Shown in pieces: positions 10,474 to 28,964 of a stretch of 30,524 nucleotides of DNA (position 1 is the first letter of the stretch; each line of letters starts with the position of its first letter). Source of the stretch: a virus. The stretch is taken from the IMG/VR virus record IMGVR_UViG_3300037069_000385, positions 1 through 30,524 of that record; one strand, given 5' to 3'. A program made the translations under genes and the position numbers. The notes under the pieces are model-generated. The model worked only from the letters and a program-made list of their open reading frames with translations, did not search any database and was not told the origin of the DNA.

Positions 10474-10902
10474 TCAGGTGATATACCGGGCCCAGTTCTC
10501 CATGGCGATGGCGGGCATGCGTTGACGGATGGTTTTCGCGGCCGGCCCGAAGTACGGGTACGCCCGGTTGTGGCCTTCCCGGCCCAACTCGATCGCCCGC
10601 GCGTAGACGGCGGTCGGGCCGACTTCGCGGGAGTACCTGCCCGGCCCGTCGTGGATGAGGGACTGGGCCTGGATGCTGCGGCGCAGGTTCCCGGTGACGA
10701 CGTTCGGTTTCGGGCCGCCGCGGTGCGGTTCCCCGCGGCGGTGTGCGCCCTCGAAGTTGGACATCGCCTCACGGATGAGGATGGCCGACGCCTGTTCCAC
10801 GTTCGCCCGCGCCGCCAAGTCCATGCCCGCGTTCATCCGGGCGAACGCGGCGTTCGCTTCGCCGAGTCCCTGCCATATGGCGCCCTGCAATCCGATGACC
10901 AC
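10474..10902 (-). CDS. HK97 gp10-like tail/neck protein
   Basis: A 142-residue protein with GTG start at 10900-10902 and a GGGGGG-rich Shine-Dalgarno stretch upstream. The C-terminal half has the HK97-gp10 family pattern: VTGNLRRSI, then VGPTAVYARAIELGREG, then AYPYFGPAAKTIRQRM. Members are neck/tail completion proteins at the head-tail or tail-terminator interface. In many phages this gene lies before the tail tube gene; here it lies between the chaperones and the tape measure. The N-terminus is helical. Confidence 0.75.
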   Translation of the reverse strand: MVIGLQGAIWQGLGEANAAFARMNAGMDLAARANVEQASAILIREAMSNFEGAHRRGEPHRGGPKPNVVTGNLRRSIQAQSLIHDGPGRYSREVGPTAVYARAIELGREGHNRAYPYFGPAAKTIRQRMPAIAMENWARYIT

Positions 10903-11687: not shown

Positions 11688-12683
11688 TTAGAACGGTGTG
11701 ATGACGGCGTTGATCTGCTGCGCCTGGATGGGTGAGAACTTCGTGTCCAGCGCGTCGGTCGCGTTCGCGATGGCCTCGAACGTGGACTGAATCGTCAGCC
11801 AGTCCGTCGCGGTCGGCTGCGGGTCCGCGGCGTCGTAGGCGACCTTCGACATCTGCAGTTTCAGCGGGTGCGTGGAGTCGCCCTGCGTGAACAGGGACAC
11901 CACCACGGACGGCTGAGTGTTCGCGATGAAGTTGGCGAGGTCGACGTCGGCGGTGCCCTGATACACGGAATCGAACGTGCCCGTCACAGTCACCGGGCCG
12001 CCGAAGATCCCGCCGGGGACCTGGGTGCCGTTGATGACCGGGACCGGTTTCACATCGCGTTTGATGTCGATCGTGATGTTCGTGTACTTGAGTGCGGCGG
12101 AACCGCCGAGGCTGATGGACGCCGTGAACGGGGGCATCAGTTGCGCGGTCGTGGGCGTGTTCGTCGGTGCGGCCAGGTTGATGCCCTGCAAACCCGTCCA
12201 CGCGACGTCGATGGTCGGTTTCTCGTTCGCTTTGATCGTCAGTTTCACGTCGGACGCGACCATGCCGGGGATCTGCATGACCTTACCGTCGCCCTGGTAC
12301 AGGAACCCGGTGTAACTGGTCGGCTGTGCCGTGTGGGTGGCGTCGGAAAGGTTATACAGGGAGCACGCGTGCATGATCGGGTCAGTTGACCCGGTGACGG
12401 TGTCTGTGCCGCCGAGGATGGACAGGAAGTGCGGGTAAGCGGTGTCCGCGTAGACCTGCGTCTGGTAGGACAGTTCCGCCCACGCCATGCCCTGCACCTG
12501 CCCGTACGTGGTCGCCATCGTCCCGCGCAATGCCTGGTCTTTCAGTGGCGTCGTTTTGCGGGAGTACTTGGGGGAGATGACGGGAATCCACATGGTCGGG
12601 GCCGCGATCGGCGTCCCCGGCGTGACTTCCTTGGCGAGTCCGAGCCACTGAGTGCTGCCCGGAAGGTAATTTACAGCAGTCAT
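11688..12683 (-). CDS. Major tail protein (tail tube subunit)
   Basis: A 331-residue protein, coupled by ATGA to the preceding 83-residue gene. It opens with NYLPGSTQWLGLAKEVTPGT and continues IWIPVISPKYSRKT-type segments; the 'G.....G.AKE...GT..APT.W.P..' start is typical of actinophage tail tube subunits. Later parts include VKLTIKANEKPTIDVAWTG, FTASISLGGSAALKYTNITI and VTGTFDSVYQ, all beta-rich. Position before the chaperones and tape measure, and the hairpin after it, fit a highly expressed tube protein. It probably consists of one tube domain plus an added surface domain. Confidence 0.85.
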   Translation of the reverse strand: MTAVNYLPGSTQWLGLAKEVTPGTPIAAPTMWIPVISPKYSRKTTPLKDQALRGTMATTYGQVQGMAWAELSYQTQVYADTAYPHFLSILGGTDTVTGSTDPIMHACSLYNLSDATHTAQPTSYTGFLYQGDGKVMQIPGMVASDVKLTIKANEKPTIDVAWTGLQGINLAAPTNTPTTAQLMPPFTASISLGGSAALKYTNITIDIKRDVKPVPVINGTQVPGGIFGGPVTVTGTFDSVYQGTADVDLANFIANTQPSVVVSLFTQGDSTHPLKLQMSKVAYDAADPQPTATDWLTIQSTFEAIANATDALDTKFSPIQAQQINAVITPF

Positions 12684-12931
12684 TTCTGTGACTCCTCTTT
12701 CGTCTTGGTGGCGGCCGCCTTGGTGGCGGGTTTGGTGGGCGGCGTTTCAGCGAGATCCGGGTGCGGGTACGGGTCGGTGGTGGTGAGCCCGTCGCCCGGT
12801 TCGACGACGATGGTCTGCCCGGCGGCCAGTTCGGACGGGTCACCGTCGGCGGGGTGGTGCCAGGCGTTGACGTCCTGGGCCAGGCCGAACAGTGCGCGCG
12901 GGTATGCGCCGGTGTAGGTGTAGTCGGCCAC
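12680..12931 (-). CDS. Small hypothetical protein before the major tail protein
   Basis: An 83-residue protein with GTG start at 12929-12931 and a clear TAAGGAG 7 nt upstream. The N-terminal half is folded-looking (YTYTGAYPRALFGLAQDVNA, then ELAAGQTIVVEPGDGL). The C-terminal third is Pro/Thr-rich, then Lys/Ala-rich (KPATKAAATKTKEESQK). The same layout, a short domain followed by a Lys/Ala tail, occurs in the 69-residue gene at 16286-16495. No family is recognised. It is translationally coupled to the major tail protein, so it is probably made in quantity. Confidence 0.6.
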   Translation of the reverse strand: MADYTYTGAYPRALFGLAQDVNAWHHPADGDPSELAAGQTIVVEPGDGLTTTDPYPHPDLAETPPTKPATKAAATKTKEESQK

Positions 12932-12942
12932 AGCCGGTCTCC

Positions 12943-13419
12943 TTAGAACATGGACGTGTACGCGGATGAGGTGATGGGCGCCACCCCGGTGGTGCGTAGC
13001 GCTTTGCTACGGCGGACCCGGTGGCGGGCGGTGTGCCGTTTGAGCGGGTGCCGGCGTTTGAGGAGGCGGCGGCGGACGGTGCGTTTGCGCCGTGCGATAC
13101 GGTGCCGGAGCGCGCGGCGGCGCGTTTTGTGGCGGACGGGGCGGCGGCGTGCGTTGCGGCGCTTCACGGACCGCCGCCGCAGCACCCGCTTCCGGGTGGT
13201 TTTGCGGAGGGTGGCGTGCCGTTTCGCGGTGCGCCGGTGCGCCCGTCTGGTTGCGGGGCGTTTCCGCATGGACGGTTTCCGGACCCGCGGTTTCCGCAAC
13301 GCGATCGCGGACCGGTTCGTCACGCCCCGGTAACGGCGGAACGAATGTTTCCGCACCTTCCGGCGGAGGATGACGGGCCGGCGGACGGCCCGTTTCCGGG
13401 ACGCGAACCGGGACCGCAT
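12943..13419 (-). CDS. Extremely Arg-rich basic protein, no acidic residues
   Basis: A 158-residue protein whose ATG overlaps the previous stop (TAATG at 13421-13417). By hand count it has 54 Arg, 15 Lys and 8 His and no Asp or Glu. The basic part covers residues 1-142 as irregular RR/RRR/KR clusters (for example RRRSVKRRNARRRPVRHK at 91-108); the last 16 residues are uncharged (GVAPITSSAYTSMF). It is between the tail terminator-like gene and the tail tube gene. The composition resembles protamines and suggests nucleic-acid or polyanion binding. I know no tail protein family of this kind. Start/stop coupling on the upstream side supports real translation; the plus-strand frames are less plausible. 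Confidence 0.7.
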   Translation of the reverse strand: MRSRFASRKRAVRRPVILRRKVRKHSFRRYRGVTNRSAIALRKPRVRKPSMRKRPATRRAHRRTAKRHATLRKTTRKRVLRRRSVKRRNARRRPVRHKTRRRALRHRIARRKRTVRRRLLKRRHPLKRHTARHRVRRSKALRTTGVAPITSSAYTSMF

Positions 13420-13919
13420 TAGGGCGCCCCGGCCGTGACTATCTCAGTTACCTTGAACTCCACGTAACTGATCGACCAGATCTTCCCGCCGTTGTCCCGG
13501 ACGGGCAGGTCCGTTTGCACGACGATGTCCATGTCATGGTCACCGGCCTGCCAGACCGGCCCGGCGCCGCCGCACCCGAGTGACGGGTCGCGGCGCAACA
13601 TTTTCACGACCGTGTCCAGGACCGTGTCCAGGTCATCCACCCACCCGTCCACGCCGCCGCCCGTGACGGGTATCCGGTACTGGTATTGGATGATGAGGGC
13701 GGCGTCGTAGACGACGGCTTTCTGCGCGGCCGGCCCACCAACGGTCAGCCACGTGTCGGTCTGGTGGTCGATGTGCACGAACGCGGCCGTGCCCGGCAGG
13801 CCGTTGTTCACCCACGCCTGCCCCGGCGTGAAGTACGGCTCATCCTTCGCGACCGACGCGAGCCCGGGCGCCCCGGTGAAGTAGTTGGTGATCGCGGCCC
13901 GGATCTCCTTGCGCGGCAT
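13419..13919 (-). CDS. Tail terminator-like / neck protein
   Basis: A 166-residue protein starting MPRKEIRAAITNYFTGAP; the ATG overlaps the adaptor stop by one base (TGATG). The pattern of an N-terminal helix (residues 1-25), then a beta domain with FVHIDHQTDTWLTVGGP, YDAALIIQYQYR, VDDLDTVLDTVVKMLRRDPS and a final ISYVEFKVTEIV matches siphovirus tail terminator/neck proteins of the gpU/gp9 type in size and order. It would cap the tail tube and join it to the connector. The family assignment is by fold-like pattern and position. Confidence 0.68.
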   Translation of the reverse strand: MPRKEIRAAITNYFTGAPGLASVAKDEPYFTPGQAWVNNGLPGTAAFVHIDHQTDTWLTVGGPAAQKAVVYDAALIIQYQYRIPVTGGGVDGWVDDLDTVLDTVVKMLRRDPSLGCGGAGPVWQAGDHDMDIVVQTDLPVRDNGGKIWSISYVEFKVTEIVTAGAP

Positions 13920-14837: not shown

Positions 14838-15359
14838 TCAGTGCCAGCGGAGCGGGAAGGACTTGAAGAACTCGGCCGTGTACCAGCCGCGTTCAACGAA
14901 CACCAGTTCGTAGGAGCCCGGGAACACGTCGCCGATCATCCGGCCGTCGTGGAACACGTTCACCCCGGCCGCGGCCAGCGCACCGTCGCACAGCTGGGCG
15001 CATTGGAACTGCCCGTCGTCCTGGAACCGTTGCCTGATCCAGTGCGGGAACCGGAACCGGAAAACGCGTTCTACGGCGATCAGGGCGTCGTCGAGGTATG
15101 CGTAAGGCTTGCCGATCTGCGCGCGCGCGTATGCGGCCACGATGTCCTGCTGCGGGCCGGTCAGGACGAACTCCGACCAGACCGCGGCCGGCCAGTCGGT
15201 GACCGGGTGCTCGGCCACGCCGTCACCGTCAGCGGACACGCAGCGGCCGTCGCCGACGTCGACGATCATGTGGTAGCAGTGGGAGCCGGTGACTTTGCAG
15301 ATAGCCCATGAGATGAAGCTGTGCGACCCTGCGATGACGGCGACCTGGCCTTTGCTCAC
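14838..15359 (-). CDS. Permuted NlpC/P60-like (YiiX/DUF830-type) hydrolase
   Basis: A 173-residue protein with GTG start at 15357-15359 overlapping the DUF1003 stop (GTGA). The order His-first, Cys-later marks the circularly permuted papain fold: SHCYHMIVDVGDG around His30, the VSADGDGV strand, YARAQIGKPYAYLDDALI at 77-94, and FQCAQLCDGALAAAGV with Cys120 as the likely nucleophile. Members hydrolyse amide or lipid ester bonds; many act on peptidoglycan peptides. No signal peptide is seen. It could be a virion-associated wall hydrolase or act inside the cell with its coupled neighbours. The substrate is not predictable from sequence alone. Confidence 0.75.
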   Translation of the reverse strand: MSKGQVAVIAGSHSFISWAICKVTGSHCYHMIVDVGDGRCVSADGDGVAEHPVTDWPAAVWSEFVLTGPQQDIVAAYARAQIGKPYAYLDDALIAVERVFRFRFPHWIRQRFQDDGQFQCAQLCDGALAAAGVNVFHDGRMIGDVFPGSYELVFVERGWYTAEFFKSFPLRWH

Positions 15360-15733
15360 GGTTTCGCCTCCCGGTCCAGCAGTTCGCGGATCTCCATGAC
15401 GATGACGGTCAGCGCCTCGATCTCGGCTTTCGCCTGGACGTTCGTGTCGTAGTCGTGCTGCGCCATTGCGGAGGCGATAGCGTCCTGCCGTTTCGCCGCG
15501 ATGAGGAGGATGGCGCCCTGCAGCCCGGCCAGCATGGACAGGAACAGGTTCAGGAGGATGAACGGGTACGGGTCGAAGCCGTGCGAGTTGTTCCCGGCCG
15601 CCCACAGGGCCATGAAGCAGAGGAACCCGATGACGAACGGCCACGAGCCCATCGCGTTGCGGAGACGGTCCGCGGCACGCTCCCCAGGGGTGAGACCGTC
15701 CTTGTGTTTGTCGTGCCACGTCCGCTTGCTCAC
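15356..15733 (-). CDS. DUF1003 membrane protein
   Basis: A 125-residue protein with GTG start at 15731-15733, overlapping the upstream stop (GTGA). It matches the DUF1003 layout: DRLRNAMGSWPFVIGF leading into a first membrane segment (about 31-48), then FDPYPFILLNLFLSMLAGLQ and a second segment to about 79. The cytoplasmic helix that follows has KRQDAIASAMAQHDYDTN and ALTVIVMEIRELLDREAK. The family is common in bacterial genomes with no established enzymatic activity. Its occurrence here, between two putative hydrolases in a structural module, is unusual; the three genes are coupled by overlaps. Confidence 0.85.
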   Translation of the reverse strand: MSKRTWHDKHKDGLTPGERAADRLRNAMGSWPFVIGFLCFMALWAAGNNSHGFDPYPFILLNLFLSMLAGLQGAILLIAAKRQDAIASAMAQHDYDTNVQAKAEIEALTVIVMEIRELLDREAKP

Positions 15734-16281
15734 GACTTCGCCGCCTTCGCCGCCATGTCTTTGAGCACCTTGGTGTGCGCGAGGTCGAGGATGTGGCGGG
15801 CTTCCGCGCATGCGAGCGCGTTGTTCGTCACGGTCAGTTCGTTGTCCTGCTTCTGCTCGCCTGACATGGACCAGTTCGTGGAACCGGTGACCAGCCACAC
15901 GCCGTTGACGATGAGCATTTTCCGGTGGATGATGGCGCCCTTCTCGGACCGGCCGATGGCCACCGAGTTGCCTTCCATCTCGGCCCGGTACTTCGTCAGA
16001 ATCGCCTTCTCGTGGACGCCGCCGGCCTGCGATGAGTCGAGCGTGACCTGCGAGTAGATGTCCGGGTTGCGCATGAAACCGTCGATCACTTCGGCGGCCT
16101 CGTCGTCGTCGTACCCGAACATGGAAAGCACGAAACTGGTCCGCACTTCCGCGAGGACGGCCATGATGACGCCGTGCACGTCATCCCATGGGGAGTAGAA
16201 GCGGCGCGTGTCGGACTGGTAGTTCGGGTCCACCGGTCGGGTGGCCTTGTATTTGTCGAGGTCTGCGATGGTCAGGGCCAC
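15730..16281 (-). CDS. Phospholipase D-like protein with altered HKD motif
   Basis: A 183-residue protein with GTG start at 16279-16281; AAGGAG lies 7 nt upstream, inside the end of the previous gene. It has the size and single-motif layout of Nuc-type PLD nucleases, which work as dimers. Residues 118-137 read IHRKMLIVNGVWLVTGSTNW: His119, Lys121 and the GSTN element have exact spacing, but the Asp of HxKx4D is Asn126. Earlier segments (WDDVHGVIMAVLAEVRTSFV at 32-51; YDDDEAAEVI at 57-66) fit the PLD fold. It could be a weakened nuclease, a lipid-acting enzyme or a structural derivative. It is coupled to DUF1003. Confidence 0.8.
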   Translation of the reverse strand: MALTIADLDKYKATRPVDPNYQSDTRRFYSPWDDVHGVIMAVLAEVRTSFVLSMFGYDDDEAAEVIDGFMRNPDIYSQVTLDSSQAGGVHEKAILTKYRAEMEGNSVAIGRSEKGAIIHRKMLIVNGVWLVTGSTNWSMSGEQKQDNELTVTNNALACAEARHILDLAHTKVLKDMAAKAAKS

Positions 16282-18211: not shown

Positions 18212-19360
18212 CTACTGCCCCCAGATTTTGCGGACCTCGGCGGCGATGCCAAGGACCCGCTTGCCCGGGTCGGTTTCGGACTCCAGCGACTTGCGCACTT
18301 CGTCGGAGTCGGCAGTGTGCCCACGGAGCGCCGGGCCAGGCTGGTTCGGCCGGTGGCCGGACAGCATGGGTCCGCTATCGCGCGGGGTCTGCTCCATTTT
18401 CTGGAGCCGTTCCGTCAGTTCGGCGTTGCTCTTGACCAGCGGCTCTACAGCGGTGGTGACTGCGGCCTCAAGGGCCTTCGCTACCGCCTCAGCGACACGG
18501 TCGTCCAACGACTTGGTGACGGTCTCATCGTCCGCGGCGGGTGCCGGGGCGACGGGTGCGGGGGCCGGCGCCACGGGGGCGGGGTCGGCTGCGGCTGCCA
18601 CGGGGGCGGCTGCGGGGTCGGCCGGGACGTCGGGGGTAGCGTCGGCGGCGTCGGCTGCGGGCGCGTCTCCCTCGGTGGCGGCATCGGAATCGGCGGCGGG
18701 TCCGGTCGCCAGCGGGGTCAGGTCGTCGGAATCGACGGAGCCCAGCAGGTTCCCGTTCTGGTCATAGACGGCGACCTGCGTGCCGTCGTCGGCTTTGGCC
18801 ACCTCGGTGGCGGGGGTCTGGTCGGTCACGGTCGTATCCTCCGTAGTGGTGTGGCGGCTCAGGGCTTTGATGAGACCGAGCGCGCGGGCGTCGGCTTCGG
18901 CGTCACGCTGGCCGGTGTCGGCTTCGTTCTGCTCGTCGACGGCGAACTTCGCGAGGGTCGCCAGCGCGAAGTCGAGGGCGCATGCGGCGTCGTCGAGGTT
19001 CCACTGGTTGTCCCATGACGCTTCGTCATCTTCGGCGCCCTCACGGGACGCGAGCTCGCGCAGCTGGTCACGGACCTGCACGAGCGCGTCCGTGGCGGTG
19101 CGTGCCTTGGCAGCGTCGACGGCTTCCCATGCGGGGGCGCCGGGGTTTGCGTCGACGGCGGCGGCGTCATCGACGGTTTCCCCGTCAATGTTCGCGCCGT
19201 CCTGCACGTCGGTGCCCTCAATGTCCTCGACCTGCTCCTCCACGCCGTCATCCTTGACGACGGGCGTCTGGGACTTGAGCAGCAGGAACGGCATCCCGGT
19301 CGCGGGTCCGTCAACCGCGTCAACACGGCCGATCACGGGGTTAACAATTTCGGTGGTCAC
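18212..19360 (-). CDS. Scaffold-like acidic protein
   Basis: A 382-residue protein with GTG start overlapping the protease stop (GTGA). It is strongly acidic and low in complexity: residues 35-75 are Asp/Glu-rich, and about 235-285 is a Pro/Ala-rich stretch (PAPVAPAPAPVAPAPA). A helical segment follows near 287-325 (LDDRVAEAVAKALEAAVTTA, then NAELTERLQKMEQ) and the C-terminus is basic/hydrophobic (GIAAEVRKIWGQ). This is the layout of scaffolding proteins: a disordered acidic body and a short capsid-binding C-terminus. Position between protease and capsid agrees. It could also be the C-terminal part of an XkdF-type protein separated as its own gene. Confidence 0.68.
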   Translation of the reverse strand: MTTEIVNPVIGRVDAVDGPATGMPFLLLKSQTPVVKDDGVEEQVEDIEGTDVQDGANIDGETVDDAAAVDANPGAPAWEAVDAAKARTATDALVQVRDQLRELASREGAEDDEASWDNQWNLDDAACALDFALATLAKFAVDEQNEADTGQRDAEADARALGLIKALSRHTTTEDTTVTDQTPATEVAKADDGTQVAVYDQNGNLLGSVDSDDLTPLATGPAADSDAATEGDAPAADAADATPDVPADPAAAPVAAAADPAPVAPAPAPVAPAPAADDETVTKSLDDRVAEAVAKALEAAVTTAVEPLVKSNAELTERLQKMEQTPRDSGPMLSGHRPNQPGPALRGHTADSDEVRKSLESETDPGKRVLGIAAEVRKIWGQ

Positions 19361-19823: not shown

Positions 19824-20003
19824 TTATGGTGTGACCGCCCGGTTGGCGATTACGCGGTCCGTGCGTGCGGCCGCATACCCGGCGTTCCACGCCTTGCATA
19901 AGCCTTGGGCCGTCGACCACGGGTAAGGGTTGCCGGTCGGGGGGATGCCGGACATGTTCGCCGTATAGCCGGCGTCCTGCGCCTGCGCGACGGTGTCCGT
20001 CAT
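19824..20003 (-). CDS. RMF/CrpP-like small protein
   Basis: A 59-residue protein whose ATG overlaps the portal stop (ATGA). The residue pattern QAQDAGYTANMSGIPPTGNP, then CKAWNAGYAAAR resembles ribosome modulation factor and CrpP-like proteins, in which a first 'A..GY.A...G....NP' helix is followed by 'W..GW..A'. RMF dimerises ribosomes; CrpP has a disputed drug-modifying role. Phages often carry proteins of this shape with no known function. The motif match is by eye. It ends just before a strong terminator. Confidence 0.7.
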   Translation of the reverse strand: MTDTVAQAQDAGYTANMSGIPPTGNPYPWSTAQGLCKAWNAGYAAARTDRVIANRAVTP

Positions 20004-23000
20004 CCCTTACCCTTCCCGAACCCTAGTTTCTGGACCACGTCGGCGTATTTCTTATCCGACGACCGGCCCAACATTTTGTACCGGAAACTGCCCTGAGTTT
20101 CCCGTCCGTTATACAGCCACCATTCCTTCAACTCATCCGACGCGTACTTCTCCACCGAACGGTACTGACCCATAAACATGGTCATCTCGTCGTACCCGGC
20201 GGCCCGGGCGGCGGCGTGCATCTTCTGGTTGTAGAATACGCCGTTCAAGTCGTCCAACGCCTTGTTGTACTGGTTGTACACGTAGGAGTCGTATTCCTCG
20301 TTGGCTTGCTGCGCGGGCGTCAGCTTACGGGCTGGCCGGATCGCCGGATTCAGGAACGGGTCCGGTGACGGTTCCACCCATGCGGGGATGGGTGACACCT
20401 CGGCGGCGGTTGCCACCGTGCCGGCGGCTTCTCGCTGGTCGATGAGGGCCAGGATCTTGTCGACGGCTTCCGGATCTTCCGCGTATGTGGCGATCGCGGC
20501 GGTCAGTTCGTCGTCCGTCCACGCCGCCGTGCTGGCGGCGGTGAGCGTGTCCGCTACCGTCGCCGCGGCGGGTGCCATGTCGGCGGGTGCGAGCCCGCCA
20601 CCGAGCGCGGACGGTGCGATTGTTGCGGCGACGGGGGCCGCAGCGCACCTGCACCTCGGGTGGACGGGCGGGGTGTCCGTCGTATCCTTCACCGGGTGCG
20701 GGTTGTTCGCGGCGATGTCCAAACAGATCGGGCACGCACCCGCCGACGTCATCAACTCCCACTCCGTCACACCCATGGACTGGTACTGACCCATGGACGC
20801 GGCAGACAGCATCCTCGCGGACTCTGTGTGGGCGATAAGTTCGGCGCGGGCCGGGTCGGAAAGCACCCTGTTCACGTCGCGGGCGATGCTATCCACGCTC
20901 CCGCCGGCTGCGACACCCGACTCGATAGCGTTACCCACCCGGGTCACCGTCGTGTCCGTGATGCCCTTGATCGTGACGCCCTGGGACTGCGTCACCGCAG
21001 CCCAACCGTTCGCCCCGGTCACCATGGACGAATCCATGCCAGGCTTCCACGTATCCCAACCATCGGGGGTCATCCCCAACTGGACTTGCGCGGCTTGGAC
21101 GCCGATGTTGAACGCGTCCGCGTGCATGTCCGGGAGGAGGACTTCCAGCCCGGTCGTGTCGGCCGTGCCCGCCAAAACCCCGGCGATCGGGGGCGGCGGG
21201 GTCTGGTCTTTGACGACACGGTCCCGGTTATACATGGCCGCGGTGATCGCCGCGGACAGGTCAGCCCGCGACCAGAGGGACTGTAGTGCGCCCGCTACAC
21301 GGGGCGCCCAGTAGTCGGTGAGTTCGAGGTCGACGTCGTGCTGCGGTGTCCTAACCGGGGGGTCGTCCCGCCAGCTAGGAGTACCAGCTTTTGGGTCGGC
21401 ATCAGCCCCGGCCGTGTCACGGAAAGCGCCTTCGACGCTGCCCGAGTCGGTGGCTGCGTTGAGGGCGTGCCACACTTTTTCGATGACGGATGGGGGGATG
21501 ATGTCGGACTCGAACCGGCGCGGCCGTTGCCCGCGCCCGATCCGGGTGAGGGTGTTAGCCTTCCACTTCCCCAGTTCTTTCACGACGGCGGGGTCGTTTC
21601 CGATGGGTGCGGCCGGTGCGGCCGGGGCCGGGGGGGCGACGGTCCCCGAACCGGGCACCGCGACCTCCAACCCCGGACGCAACGGGTCATCCGGGTCAAT
21701 CGGGGCACGCTCAAACGTCGGCGCGCCCGGCTGCTTATCCGGTGTGATCCCCGGCGTCCCCGCAAACGGGGTCGTATCCAACGGCACATCCTCCGACGGG
21801 GCACCGGTCTGCGGGTCAATCGGACCGGCCACAGCGAACAGGGACCGCAACGGGATACGGCCCTGACGGCTGTTATCAAACGACCGTGGCACGGGCCGGC
21901 CGGCGTTCGTCGGCAAACCATAACGGCGTTCCCGGATCTCATCCGGGGACACCACAGCGGCGTCCATGTAGATTTTGTCCGCCTGAGCGGTCGCCACACG
22001 GTCCTCGGACTCCTGGCCCGTGTCGAACTCGAACACGACGGGCAGGCCGAGGTCGTCCTGCAGGTACGCGGTCAGGATGTCCTGGATGTGCTGAACCAAG
22101 GGGAGGGTGCCGATACGGAACTGCACATCGACCTGTGTGTCGCCGGTGGCCCGGTTGACGTCCTCAGTGAAGCCGAGGTCGTTGGGTGTCACATGGTAGG
22201 CGGCGCACACGACGCGCATCAGGTACAGGGGGAACGTCGGGTCGAAGTTCTTCTCCTGCGGAAACGACATGACCGTGCCGTGGGGCACCATCTTGAGCTT
22301 GTGCTTCACACGGGTGTCCGTGTTCATCGCAGCCCAGTACGCCTCCCACTGCTCCAACTGCTCCGGGGTGGTGATCGTCTCCGGCGCGGTCGCGAAACCC
22401 TCGGGGATGTTCCCCTCAGTGAACCAGTCCATCCAGTGCTTCTGGAACCGCATGTGCGTGTTTGCGGTCAGCAGGACGTGCTCCAGCGGGGCGATGCCGT
22501 AGGGGCTGTCGGGTTGCGGGCGGAACGGCTGATAGATCAGGTCGTCCTCGGTCAACCATTCCCACGGCTGCCCGTCCACGTACTGCACGTAGGCGGGGGC
22601 AGGGGACATCGGGCGGCGGCCGTAGTAGTCGAGGACGGGGGCGATCGTCGTCCCGGACACGACCTCCAACGCACAAACCTGGCCGATCATGTTGCGGCGC
22701 CGGTACAGGCATCCCGCGTCGTAGCGGAGGACGTCCTGCAGGTACATGGCCAGCCACGACCGGAACCCGTTACGCCCGTCAGGGCGGCGCAGGGCGGCTT
22801 TCGCACGGTCCACGGCGTCACTGTCACCGTCGCCGCGTTCCACCCAGTCAGCCGGGCGGATAGACCAGTCGAGGGACCGGACGTCGTCGATGCGGTGATT
22901 GATGCACGCCGCCGCCACGTCATACGTGTCCGTCAGTGCCTTGAGGAGCTGGAAGTCGAGGCGCCCGTCACGGTCGGCACGGGATTTGATGTTGTACCCG

Positions 23001-23233
23001 GTCGGGAAGTTCCAAGCACGCGGCATCCCCGAAACACCGTCGAACGGGGTCAGGGGGATGCCGGGCGCGAACGGGCCGGCCAGTGTCTCGCCCTGCACCT
23101 TAGCGGACGCGGTGGCGACGTCGAGCATGGCCTGATCCACGGCCTTGACCACCTCAGTGGAGGTTGTGATACCCGATGGGGCGTTCTGATCGGACAGGCC
23201 GGTTACCGGGGCCGACGCGCGACGTGATGGCAT
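20000..23233 (-). CDS. Portal protein fused to MuF head-morphogenesis domain and C-terminal extension
   Basis: A 1077-residue protein with ATG 23233 and a strong GGGAGGA site 7-8 nt upstream, giving an 80-base overlap with the terminase gene. Residues about 60-480 are portal: LLKALTDTYDVAAACINHRI, DVLRYDAGCLYRRRN, DLIYQPFRPQPDSPYGIAPL, RVVCAAYHVTPNDLGF. A Pro/Ala linker (about 490-570) follows. Residues about 690-870 are MuF/SPP1 gp7-like: AELIAHTESARMLSAASMGQ, ACPICLDIAANNPHPV and HPRCRCAAAPV. The last ~190 residues add an Ala-rich helical part and a Tyr/Trp-rich domain (YDSYVYNQYNKALDDLNGVF; ELKEWWLYNGRETQGSFRYK) that I do not recognise. The portal is the DNA gate; MuF proteins are inside the head and may be ejected. 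Confidence 0.88.
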   Translation of the reverse strand: MPSRRASAPVTGLSDQNAPSGITTSTEVVKAVDQAMLDVATASAKVQGETLAGPFAPGIPLTPFDGVSGMPRAWNFPTGYNIKSRADRDGRLDFQLLKALTDTYDVAAACINHRIDDVRSLDWSIRPADWVERGDGDSDAVDRAKAALRRPDGRNGFRSWLAMYLQDVLRYDAGCLYRRRNMIGQVCALEVVSGTTIAPVLDYYGRRPMSPAPAYVQYVDGQPWEWLTEDDLIYQPFRPQPDSPYGIAPLEHVLLTANTHMRFQKHWMDWFTEGNIPEGFATAPETITTPEQLEQWEAYWAAMNTDTRVKHKLKMVPHGTVMSFPQEKNFDPTFPLYLMRVVCAAYHVTPNDLGFTEDVNRATGDTQVDVQFRIGTLPLVQHIQDILTAYLQDDLGLPVVFEFDTGQESEDRVATAQADKIYMDAAVVSPDEIRERRYGLPTNAGRPVPRSFDNSRQGRIPLRSLFAVAGPIDPQTGAPSEDVPLDTTPFAGTPGITPDKQPGAPTFERAPIDPDDPLRPGLEVAVPGSGTVAPPAPAAPAAPIGNDPAVVKELGKWKANTLTRIGRGQRPRRFESDIIPPSVIEKVWHALNAATDSGSVEGAFRDTAGADADPKAGTPSWRDDPPVRTPQHDVDLELTDYWAPRVAGALQSLWSRADLSAAITAAMYNRDRVVKDQTPPPPIAGVLAGTADTTGLEVLLPDMHADAFNIGVQAAQVQLGMTPDGWDTWKPGMDSSMVTGANGWAAVTQSQGVTIKGITDTTVTRVGNAIESGVAAGGSVDSIARDVNRVLSDPARAELIAHTESARMLSAASMGQYQSMGVTEWELMTSAGACPICLDIAANNPHPVKDTTDTPPVHPRCRCAAAPVAATIAPSALGGGLAPADMAPAAATVADTLTAASTAAWTDDELTAAIATYAEDPEAVDKILALIDQREAAGTVATAAEVSPIPAWVEPSPDPFLNPAIRPARKLTPAQQANEEYDSYVYNQYNKALDDLNGVFYNQKMHAAARAAGYDEMTMFMGQYRSVEKYASDELKEWWLYNGRETQGSFRYKMLGRSSDKKYADVVQKLGFGKGKG

Positions 23234-25297: not shown

Positions 25298-26377
25298 TTA
25301 GCGCCGGACTTCGAGGCCGGCGTACTGGTCCCTGGTCATGCCGTACAGGTCGGCGGCAGCGGCCAGGGGGTCTTTGTGATGTGCGGGCACGATCAGCCCG
25401 TACCGGTGGCGGGTGCCGTCTCGTTCGACGGTCCCGTTGGTGCACAGCAGCACCCGGGCACGCTCCCGGTAGAGGCCGTCCAAGGCTTTCGGGAGGTCGT
25501 ACAGGGTGAGAGTGTGCGGTGCGTTGCCCGGGTCCGGGACCGGACGGCCGACTGGCTGCATGTTGGATTCGGCTATGAACCGGTCCCATCCGGTGGCTTC
25601 GATCGCGCACCGCCGCACTTCGGTGTTGGTTTCGGTCATGACGGCTTCCAAATTCCAGTCCCGGGTGTGGAAATCGTCCGGGAGGCGTGTGCCGTGCCAT
25701 GCGTTGAACCCGTACCCGTCCGCATACTCCAACGCGGCACCGTGCGCGTTATGCAGCCGGCCTTGGGCATCCCGGCTGATGACCGTAGGCCTCTCGGTCA
25801 TGAACGCGACCTCGGGCGTGGCGTACCACCAGCCTGTATGGTCCAGCACGGTGGTGAACGCTTTCAGTTGCGCCGATTCCGGCAGCCCGGCTATCGCCAG
25901 CCCGTCGCTATAGAAGGCAGTCCAGTAGGTTTCGTACCAGGTGTTGAACCCGGTGGATATGAACTGCCATCCCTGGTCCCCGAGCTGGTCCCCGAGCTGG
26001 CCCCCGAGCTGGTCCCGGAGCTGGCCCCGGAGCTGGCCCCAGAGCTGGCTCCAGAGCTGGCCCCCGAGCTGGCTCCAGAGCTGGTCCCGGAGCTGGTCCC
26101 CGAGCTGGCCCCGGAGCTGGCCCCCGAGCTGGGATTTGTCATCTTTGGCGGTGATGAGTTTGAGGACCGTCAGCGCGTACACCCCGCCAAGGGGTGAGTC
26201 CATCCAGATGAACGCAGATGGCGGGGTGCGCCCGGCGAGCCGGTACAGCTCATTGACCGCTGCTTCCGCCTTGGTCCGGTCGCAGCGCTGTGTGGAGAGT
26301 GCGTTGGTCATCCGGTCCGTGATGGTCTCTTCGATGAGGGCAAGGTGTGCGGGGGTGAGGGTTCCTGTGTAGGTCAC
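25298..26377 (-). CDS. DUF6745-like protein with QLxx tetrapeptide repeat
   Basis: A 359-residue protein with GTG start at 26375-26377 and AAGGA 7-8 nt upstream. Residues 1-80 are helical, with WMDSPLGGVYALTVL. Residues about 82-133 are thirteen copies of Gln-Leu-x-x (x mainly Gly, Arg, Asp, Trp or Ser). The remaining ~220 residues resemble DUF6745: TYWTAFYSDGLAIAG, EYADGYGFNAWHGTRLP, RVLLCTNGTVERDGT, and DLYGMTRDQYAGLEVRR at the end. Members occur in actinomycetes and their phages; the activity is unknown. The gene has its own predicted promoter just upstream. No catalytic site can be named. Confidence 0.78.
   Translation of the reverse strand: MTYTGTLTPAHLALIEETITDRMTNALSTQRCDRTKAEAAVNELYRLAGRTPPSAFIWMDSPLGGVYALTVLKLITAKDDKSQLGGQLRGQLGDQLRDQLWSQLGGQLWSQLWGQLRGQLRDQLGGQLGDQLGDQGWQFISTGFNTWYETYWTAFYSDGLAIAGLPESAQLKAFTTVLDHTGWWYATPEVAFMTERPTVISRDAQGRLHNAHGAALEYADGYGFNAWHGTRLPDDFHTRDWNLEAVMTETNTEVRRCAIEATGWDRFIAESNMQPVGRPVPDPGNAPHTLTLYDLPKALDGLYRERARVLLCTNGTVERDGTRHRYGLIVPAHHKDPLAAAADLYGMTRDQYAGLEVRR
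25982..26137. repeat. Thirteen tandem 12-bp units (GAGCTGG-based)
   Basis: GAGCTGG recurs every 12 bases at 25982, 25994, 26006 and so on to 26126 without one break in spacing; the last unit diverges in its final bases. The units encode Gln-Leu-x-x on the minus strand. Because the unit is a multiple of three, copy-number change would not shift the frame. All frames across the tract on both strands stay open, which creates spurious open frames. Confidence 0.95.
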
Positions 26378-27290: not shown

Positions 27291-27752
27291 TCAGATCCTC
27301 TCCTCAGCCCAGCCGGGCACGGTTGTGGTGGGGATGCCGTGCGACCGCCACAGGTCGATGATGGCCGGGTTGTCGTCGTAGGCGTGCACGATGTTGTGCC
27401 GTTCCCTGAGCCGGGCCAGGATCTCGCCTTTGATGAGCACGTCGGACCGGTAGTCGCCGGTCGGCCTCATGTGCAGTTCGTCGTACTCTACGGCGTGGTC
27501 GGCCAGCCAGTTCTCGGTGAGTGTACCCCACCGGTATTCGCGGGCGGTGACCACGACGATGGTGCGCCCGTCCTGCCGGTGCCGGTCCAGTTCCTCCACG
27601 ACCCAGCCAATGGCCGGGCAGAATATCGACGCGTAGTGGAACGCGTCGAAGTTCTTGGGCCGGGCCAGGACGTGGTGGCGGATGCTGGTCACGTCCACGA
27701 GCGTCCCGTCACAGTCGAAGATCACCGCCTCACGAGTTAGCGGCTTAGTCAT
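27291..27752 (-). CDS. HAD-family polynucleotide 3'-phosphatase (T4 PNK-phosphatase-like)
   Basis: A 153-residue protein from ATG 27752, overlapping the previous stop (ATGA). All HAD motifs are visible: FDCDGTLVD with nucleophile Asp13 and Asp15, VVTAREYR with Thr69 at motif II, Lys108 in VLIKGEIL (motif III), and YDDNPAII with Asp126/Asp127 (motif IV). The MRPTGDYRSD segment before Lys108 is characteristic of the phosphatase domain of T4-type polynucleotide kinases. The kinase domain is absent. It may remove 3' phosphates at nicks, in RNA/DNA repair. It is coupled upstream and lies two bases from the terminase gene. Confidence 0.85.
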   Translation of the reverse strand: MTKPLTREAVIFDCDGTLVDVTSIRHHVLARPKNFDAFHYASIFCPAIGWVVEELDRHRQDGRTIVVVTAREYRWGTLTENWLADHAVEYDELHMRPTGDYRSDVLIKGEILARLRERHNIVHAYDDNPAIIDLWRSHGIPTTTVPGWAEERI

Positions 27753-27889
27753 GATTCATGCCGGATCGCAATGAGAAGCCCGGGGTACGGCGTGTACGTG
27801 AACGTTCCCGGAGATGCATAGACTTCACAGCGCCCCTCGGCGGTAACGGTGCAGTTCGCGGGGACGTTGATCGTGACCCGCTTACTCAC
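27749..27889 (-). CDS. Small hypothetical protein
   Basis: A 46-residue protein from GTG 27889; its start overlaps the end of the PP-loop gene by 8 bases and its stop overlaps the HAD gene start (ATGA). The sequence begins MSKRVTINVPANCTVTAEGR and ends in a hydrophobic beta segment (FTYTPYPGLLIAIRHES). It has two Cys (13 and 21). No family is recognised. Coupling on both sides supports expression. Confidence 0.55.
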   Translation of the reverse strand: MSKRVTINVPANCTVTAEGRCEVYASPGTFTYTPYPGLLIAIRHES

Positions 27890-28964
27890 CGGGCGCCTCG
27901 ATCCGGTCAGCACGGTCACGAAGCCGCCACGGTTCGTCCGCGTAGAGCCGCAGCGTGGCGACGTACTGAGCCCGCAGTTTGGGCAGCTGGAGGTCCAGCG
28001 CTTCGGCTCGCCGATCCGTCAACCAGGCCGCCCGCTCTACGATCTCCCACAAGGGATCAGTATCCAAATTACAGCTCGTGCACATGGGTCCAGACTTATA
28101 CGACGGATTACCCTGACCATGTCCCCAAGTGCAAAATGGTTCCACATGCCCAGCCGCCCGCACCTCAACCTGTAACGCCTCAATCTGGGCACGTACTTCC
28201 GGGTAATGCTCACCCACCATCTCCAACTCACCCGGCTTAGCGAACGCACCACACAAGCACTCACCCGACATACCGACATGACCGGAGACAACATTCACTG
28301 GCACGTCACCCATCATTAGCCTGTACGTGGTCATATCGAATTTTGTCCACATCGCAATAGGGGACGCCCAAATCACGGACCTGTCCCGCTCGTGCAGGGG
28401 GATGTCTTTGCGGCGCGCTGACTCAGAACGTCGCCGGCCTGCAATGAACACGACCCGCTGCTTCCGCCCGTTGACGATCAGGTCACGTCGCACTTGGTCA
28501 AGGCAACGTTCTTTCAGCCGCTGATACATCTTGTAATGCATCGCAGGGCCGGGGAATCCGCGCTCCAATACTAGATCCCGGTAACTTGTCGGTGGGTGCT
28601 TCTCCAACAATGGCAGCCCCCAATCAGCGCATGTGTCACGCACGAACTGCCGTGTAGCTTCAATCCCTATCCCCGTATTAGCGTGCGCAGCATGCGTAGC
28701 GACATCCTTGAACAGATGTCCTAGCACCGTCGAGTCGTTGCCGCCACTGAACAGCAGAACGTGACCGGTTATTTCCTTACCCTCAGCAAGTTCCAGCGCA
28801 TCGGCATGTATCTGATGGGCTTGTTTGATAAGGTGCCTGACTCGTTCCTCTCGCTGTGGTCGTGTCAGTCTGAGAACTATCTCCCAAGGTGTCGGGTCGT
28901 CGAGGCTTGGGTGTATGGGGTCATCGGACCACGCCTCAGCAGCTTCGAATAGTGTGCCGCTCAT
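27882..28964 (-). CDS. PP-loop (PAPS reductase family) enzyme with Cys cluster
   Basis: A 360-residue protein; ATG overlaps the previous stop. The PP-loop SGGNDS is at 73-78 and the downstream GRRRSESARR at 176-185 fits the 'GxR..ES..R' substrate region of PAPS-reductase-like enzymes. A C-terminal part has Cys236 and Cys238 in ECLCGAFAKPGE, Cys278, and Cys295/Cys298 (MCTSC), probably binding Zn or an Fe-S cluster. The family adenylates or moves sulfur/nucleotides. In phages such proteins are called PAPS reductase but the reaction is usually unknown. DndC-like DNA sulfur modification or tRNA thiolation are possible; no partners (DndD/E, cysteine desulfurase) are seen here. Confidence 0.82.
   Translation of the reverse strand: MSGTLFEAAEAWSDDPIHPSLDDPTPWEIVLRLTRPQREERVRHLIKQAHQIHADALELAEGKEITGHVLLFSGGNDSTVLGHLFKDVATHAAHANTGIGIEATRQFVRDTCADWGLPLLEKHPPTSYRDLVLERGFPGPAMHYKMYQRLKERCLDQVRRDLIVNGRKQRVVFIAGRRRSESARRKDIPLHERDRSVIWASPIAMWTKFDMTTYRLMMGDVPVNVVSGHVGMSGECLCGAFAKPGELEMVGEHYPEVRAQIEALQVEVRAAGHVEPFCTWGHGQGNPSYKSGPMCTSCNLDTDPLWEIVERAAWLTDRRAEALDLQLPKLRAQYVATLRLYADEPWRLRDRADRIEAPGE

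Follow-up and report, generated by a model that had tools for sequence, protein, structure and literature searches.

The viral window analysed here, a complete IMG/VR record 30,524 bases in length, encodes within its tail module an acid-free, arginine-rich protein of 158 residues. Comparison with its relatives indicates that it belongs to a real and hitherto undescribed family of polycations, whose genes occupy the slot between the tail terminator gene and a small acidic gene preceding the tail tube gene. The window protein displays all the features by which we recognize this family: the slot position; a match to profiles built without its own clade; a conserved C-terminal peptide; and a near-zero content of acidic residues combined with a high content of Arg, Lys and His. 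What is conserved at the two ends of these proteins is sequence, whereas what is conserved in their middles is charge.

An acid-free protein encoded beside the tail terminator

The gene lies on the minus strand (12943..13419, read from 13419 to 12943). Its product comprises 54 Arg, 15 Lys and 8 His among its 158 residues, with neither Asp nor Glu, and has a net charge of +69 and a pI of 12; by comparison, the net charges of the 19 other structural-module proteins of the window for which they were computed range from -47 to +7. A first-pass annotation of this DNA had correctly placed the open frame, leaving its strand unstated, and its hand count of these residues proved exact.

In a control comprising 60 first-order Markov versions of the window, none of the 7515 ORFs of at least 100 residues (0/7515) combined zero acidic residues with at least 40% Arg, Lys and His. 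This control, along with a sense frame that remains open in every member of the family (including the slot ORF of contig L040, 6509-7081), rules out that the composition is an artefact arising from high GC content or from a gene on the opposite strand. The alternative frame that is most often open is so in only 11 of the 22 members. Composition alone is insufficient as evidence for a gene, because a 91-residue acid-free ORF with 43% Arg, Lys and His lies on the plus strand of the window at 18982-19257, antisense to an acidic putative scaffold gene, and is itself a possible antisense artefact. The proof that 12943-13419 is a real gene is instead comparative, being furnished at the sequence level by the conserved open frame, the dN/dS values and the leave-one-clade-out hidden Markov models (HMMs) described below.

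The first-pass annotation had staked its claim on the homologs keeping this frame, with a Ka/Ks that is not near 1, and the claim survived: the frame is open in all members and dN/dS lies between 0.05 and 0.58 in 14 pairs of basic genes, which points to purifying selection. The ratio pN/pS for the sense frame is below 1 in every pair. One antisense frame that shares wobble positions with the sense frame also yields values below 1, as expected, and in a few pairs (e.g., L010/L032) they are equally low; hence, the dN/dS test alone does not exclude that frame, but stop codons break it up in almost every member. Even among the nine KKPVYTHPR repeats within a single protein, gp10 of the Arthrobacter phage Mufasa8, pS is 0.56 and pN 0.077, a ratio of 0.14.

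The gene immediately upstream (13419..13919, minus) returned no match in profile searches. However, its predicted structure (mean pLDDT 83) matches the P74-26 neck, T5 p142 and lambda gpU with VIA Z values of 13.0, 12.8 and 11.1, respectively, and an rmsd of 2.7-3.6 Å over 127-139 residues, and Foldseek retrieves the tail terminators of these and other phages with E-values of about 1e-5 to 1e-4. The modelled fold thus confirms the gene as a tail terminator, in line with the first-pass description of it as terminator-like. The ATG of the basic gene overlaps the terminator stop codon (TAATG), and the stop/start coupling that had been noted in the window is retained in most relatives, whether as TAATG/TGATG, as TAGTG or with a start right after the stop. 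On the other side, the stop codon of the basic gene overlaps the Shine-Dalgarno sequence (TAAGGAG) of a gene for an 83-residue acidic protein with a net charge of -6 (12680..12931, minus); in relatives, too, this small gene separates the basic gene from the tail tube gene. The tail tube protein follows (11688..12683, minus; Phage_tube_2, E 1.4e-24) and 3' of its gene come the other genes of the siphovirus tail module, among them that of the tape measure (PhageMin_Tail). The basic gene had been described as lying just before the tail tube gene; its position in the tail module stands, whereas direct adjacency does not, as the small acidic gene intervenes.

Several other features of the window deserve mention in their own right. 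Between the major capsid protein and the head-tail adaptor it has three genes (14838-16281), encoding a PLD-like, a DUF1003 and a phrog_1128-like protein, as against one small gene in Mufasa8 and in Sonali, another Arthrobacter phage. The portal and a Mu-F-like domain are fused in one 1077-residue protein (20000-23233), as annotated in Sonali. A DUF6745 gene (25298-26377, minus) contains a 12-nt unit repeated 13 times (25973-26132), which encodes a run of QL.GQL.DQL-type repeats. Finally, a PAPS reductase-domain protein (27882-28964; PF01507, E 2.4e-11) adjoins a PNKP-type HAD phosphatase (27291-27752), and the pair could function in sulfur metabolism or DNA modification.

A family recovered through gene position

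Direct searches of phage and viral collections with the basic protein returned no match. The filtering of low-complexity sequence probably accounts for this failure, because relatives did emerge from synteny: using the tail tube and the terminator as anchors, we located the locus in Mufasa8 and Sonali, in many metagenomic viral contigs and in bacterial genomes. The latter, which include carriers of Arthrobacter-type prophages, are those of Arthrobacter liuii, a Pseudarthrobacter sp. and Subtercola vilae, plus a further one taken from the family to which the A. liuii genome belongs. All members with a named host or in a named genome are associated with Arthrobacter-type actinobacteria or Subtercola. 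In nearly all loci the slot protein is basic, 94-184 residues long and free, or almost free, of acidic residues, and the 21 aligned slot proteins contain just 11 acidic residues among a total of 2924, together with 22% Arg, 11% Lys and 10% His. Coupled genes of the same composition at the same position, which the first-pass annotation had suggested looking for, are therefore indeed present in Mufasa8, metagenomic phages and prophages, with synteny as the means of finding them.

Homology was assessed by building, for each clade, an HMM that leaves out that clade and running it against all contig ORFs of at least 40 residues. The slot ORF was the sole significant match in every core contig, with E-values from 1e-4 to 5e-23; the window ORF was recovered with an E-value of 1e-9 among 429 ORFs, the next best scoring 0.098. 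Mufasa8 gp10 (QGJ93460.1), annotated as a 'hypothetical protein', occupies the same slot with the same coupling, is likewise acid-free, ends in SSYITMFS and is detected by the corresponding leave-one-out HMM with an E-value of 1.3e-4. Its middle, however, consists of the nine KKPVYTHPR repeats in place of the Arg-rich helix of the window protein. Further, BLASTP aligns the window protein with its L007 relative in two separate matches, one covering residues 1-33 (64% identity, E 3e-8) and the other the last 31 residues (45% identity, E 4e-7).

These comparisons and the family alignment resolve three parts of the protein. The conserved N-terminal block, residues 1-35, MRSRFASRKRAVRRPVILRRKVRKHSFRRYRGVTN (13315..13419, minus), follows the pattern RSR-x-x-RR...V-x-H-H-H-RRYAGVRG (in short, RSR…HRRYAGVRG). 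The middle polycationic segment, residues 58-123 (13051..13248, minus), is predicted to form one long basic helix in the window member, with a pLDDT of about 90-96 over most of its length in a model whose overall pTM is 0.35. Across the family, the middle is conserved in charge, variable in sequence and often repetitive: a segment of the window type is absent or replaced by other basic repeats, among them the KKPVYTHPR units of Mufasa8, GRHRRFLGRK-like and RKGYHVHRRK-like units and other His-rich repeats, with almost nothing remaining in L005-L007. The protein closes with the conserved peptide APITSSAYTSMF and the stop codon (12943..12981, minus). The consensus of this peptide is (A)PIS(S/A)xxYLSMF, i.e., (A)PI[ST]xxxYLSMF, and the window protein ends in PITSSAYTSMF. 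The mean pairwise identity of the C-terminal 12-mer is 0.57, whereas random internal 12-mers from these proteins average 0.115 ± 0.010. The codons inside the peptide vary synonymously and its distance to the next Shine-Dalgarno sequence is variable, which rules out the motif being a by-product of that ribosome-binding site. A DNA-pattern scan of the viral contigs for this tag, which allows a single codon choice per fixed residue and so undercounts, recovered three family contigs and two evident chance matches (L054 and L055).

On the strength of these sequence comparisons, the slot proteins are best regarded as one real family. Its gene is accessory and dispensable in relatives, and thus not needed for tail assembly in general, because L009/L020 and L021/L022 have the same flanking genes with only 9-14 nt in the slot, and the distant phage THSA-485A likewise lacks the basic gene. 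The first-pass annotation had overlooked this dispensability, as well as the two conserved ends of the protein and its repeat-built middle. In the tree of the terminators, the core carriers fall in well-supported groups, and the non-carriers and untagged polycations lie on long, unresolved branches; this topology is compatible both with one gain followed by later loss and with several gains.

A few further slots hold proteins whose position, charge or tag is their only link to the family, the profiles lending no support to their homology. That of Sonali (MK411746, about 10571-10726; L002:8567-8722) contains an unannotated 51-residue ORF that is proline-rich and near-neutral (net +4) and ends in DDSTSYASNF, which resembles the family tag in the absence of a polycation. 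Conversely, L040 (6509-7081) encodes a 190-residue slot protein, possibly of independent origin, with 72% Arg, Lys and His, no acidic residue and no C-terminal tag, and the slot of L042 holds a 57-residue polycation, again without the C-terminal motif. The latter two indicate that tag and polycation can come apart, and hint that the slot may have been filled convergently in other phages.

Candidate roles of the polycation

Taken together, the location of the gene in the operon, its coupling to the terminator and the conservation of the tag suggest a virion component of the neck or tail, or a factor in its assembly, while the near-complete exclusion of acidic residues combined with free sequence drift suggests that the body serves as a counter-ion or binds nucleic acid. 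The reading that we tentatively prefer, and hold to be possible, is that of a virion-associated polycation of the neck/tail region that is docked by its tag and binds nucleic acid. Briefly, we envisage the following mechanism. The conserved C-terminal peptide would mediate docking to a component of the neck or tail, be it the terminator, the small acidic protein or the tube. The acid-free body of Arg, Lys and His, along with the N-terminal block, would then bind the end of the genomic DNA or the channel nearby, and the bound DNA end might be held or shielded until ejection. Each element of this proposal has its own source: DNA binding is suggested by the composition, docking by the conservation of the C-terminus, incorporation into the virion by the operon position and a low copy number by the coupling to the terminator. 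The tail terminator is a hexamer in known phages. Six to 12 copies of the basic protein would neutralize only a few hundred phosphates, and a local role therefore fits better than bulk condensation of the genome. A negative charge has been reported for the tail and connector channels of mycobacteriophage Douge (PMC13033339); with lumens of this kind, the DNA and the channel wall would both be possible binding partners of the polycation.

Certain observations count against this neck/tail reading. A strong cation in the DNA channel could hamper ejection, the gene is absent from the relatives noted above (L009/L020, L021/L022 and THSA-485A), and the tag and the polycation are separable. The more specific suggestion of the first-pass annotation, that the protein coats the tape measure, finds no support, as its length and charge correlate with tape-measure length at rho 0.13 and -0.17, respectively, in what is a weak test over 11 complete loci.

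Other roles have to be weighed against the same evidence. One is that of cargo comparable to the internal proteins of phage T4, packed in the head with the DNA upon recruitment by the C-terminal tag and/or an acidic scaffold, and ejected with the genome to protect it or to inhibit host enzymes. The layout of a short conserved tag joined to a divergent basic body is the same as in T4 (PMC9026906), and the putative scaffold of the window phage is very acidic (net -47). However, the tag is C-terminal with no sign of a protease site, and the gene sits with the terminator and tube, away from the capsid and scaffold genes; its coupling partner, moreover, encodes a product of which few copies are required. 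We accordingly consider such cargo unlikely. Gene position and coupling are also compatible with an assembly factor that is no part of the virion, i.e., a transient electrostatic chaperone for acidic neck and tail proteins, and the candidate clients are indeed acidic (net -7 for the terminator, -6 for both the small protein and the tube and -13 for a tail chaperone-like protein). Yet the small neighbor stays acidic in polycation-free relatives (17% Asp and Glu in L009), and L009, L021 and THSA-485A presumably build their tails without the polycation, which leaves this role quite improbable.

We give still less credence to a polycationic brush on the surface of the neck or tail, anchored on the outside by the tag and promoting adsorption to soil surfaces or to the anionic cell wall of actinobacteria. 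The repeat-built, low-complexity middle of variable length does resemble exposed repetitive appendages, and the restriction of members with a named host or genome to Arthrobacter-type actinobacteria or Subtercola would suit it; but so thorough an exclusion of acidic residues is seen more typically in proteins that bind nucleic acids, no clear role would remain for the conserved N-terminal block, and no wall-binding domain was found in Pfam and NCBIfam profile searches. Equally hard to credit is a late-expressed host-takeover protein outside the virion, which would bind DNA or RNA and target either phage RNA or the host nucleoid. A sub-threshold, composition-driven resemblance to histone H1-like proteins (HC2, E 0.001; hist_H1_lk_Burk, E 0.0034) speaks for it. 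Against it, the gene lies amid the virion structural operon and is coupled to the terminator, no promoter-like site was found near it, and host-takeover genes are usually early and situated outside the virion structural module.

Carried further, the neck/tail reading would make these proteins a new class of siphophage component, protamine-like and tag-docked, acting as a clamp or shield for the genome end within the tail channel and governing its release, with selection acting on charge rather than sequence and the middle evolving freely by repeat turnover. In this full form we regard the proposal as doubtful. If located in the neck or tail, the protein would offer a direct handle on how the pressurized genome end is held at the head-tail junction and released. 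Further, the family clearly exemplifies selection on charge in place of sequence, in combination with a short tag that is conserved and that might serve for loading cargo into actinophage virions. With Arthrobacter prophage carriers and the isolated phage Mufasa8 at hand, the family is open to experiment.

Comparison with known polycations

Among described families the slot proteins have few points of contact. None of 20 members matches any PHROG at an E-value of 0.01, a PDB sequence search with the family profile gave no match, and in the open-access literature that was searched we found no siphophage tail protein of this sort described. The best Pfam match of the window protein is HC2 (PF07382), with an E-value of 0.001 and 19.7 bits against a gathering score of 40 bits, and only 2 of 20 members show an HC2 match of any kind at 0.01; likewise, the NCBIfam model NF038053 (hist_H1_lk_Burk) gives an E-value of 0.0034 and 17.7 bits against a cut-off of 80 bits. 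HC2 and the bacterial histone H1-like proteins are, like the phage family, Lys/Arg-rich, repetitive and of low complexity, whereas the N-terminal block and the C-terminal tag are features of the phage family. Scores so far below the cut-offs rule out membership in either, and the weak resemblance is driven by composition. The first-pass statement that no siphovirus tail protein of this composition had been described therefore agrees with what we found in Pfam, PHROGs, NCBIfam and the open-access literature, where, further, no polycation family is tied to the siphophage tail terminator.

Polycations as such are a known kind of viral protein, being present in eukaryotic DNA viruses and in T4 heads, and it is the slot family, its position and its tag that appear to be undescribed. 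The baculovirus P6.9 and the adenovirus VII and mu proteins are protamine-like virion proteins of eukaryotic DNA viruses, which share with the slot family an extreme Arg content and very few acidic residues. They differ in their eukaryotic hosts, high copy number and role in condensing the whole genome, and we claim no homology between them and the slot family.

In the T4 internal proteins, which leave the virion together with the ejected DNA, a conserved targeting sequence of about 10 residues is attached to a body that is divergent and often basic (PMC9026906). IPI-IPIII thus resemble the slot proteins in joining a basic divergent body to a short conserved peptide (PMC9026906), and they are, like the slot family, dispensable or poorly conserved among relatives. 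In T4 the tag lies at the N-terminus and is removed by the prohead protease, in contrast to the C-terminal peptide of the slot family, and the T4 proteins are present in about 360 copies in the head and differ in gene position. By this analogy of layout, the T4 internal proteins would be the closest functional analogue of the slot family.
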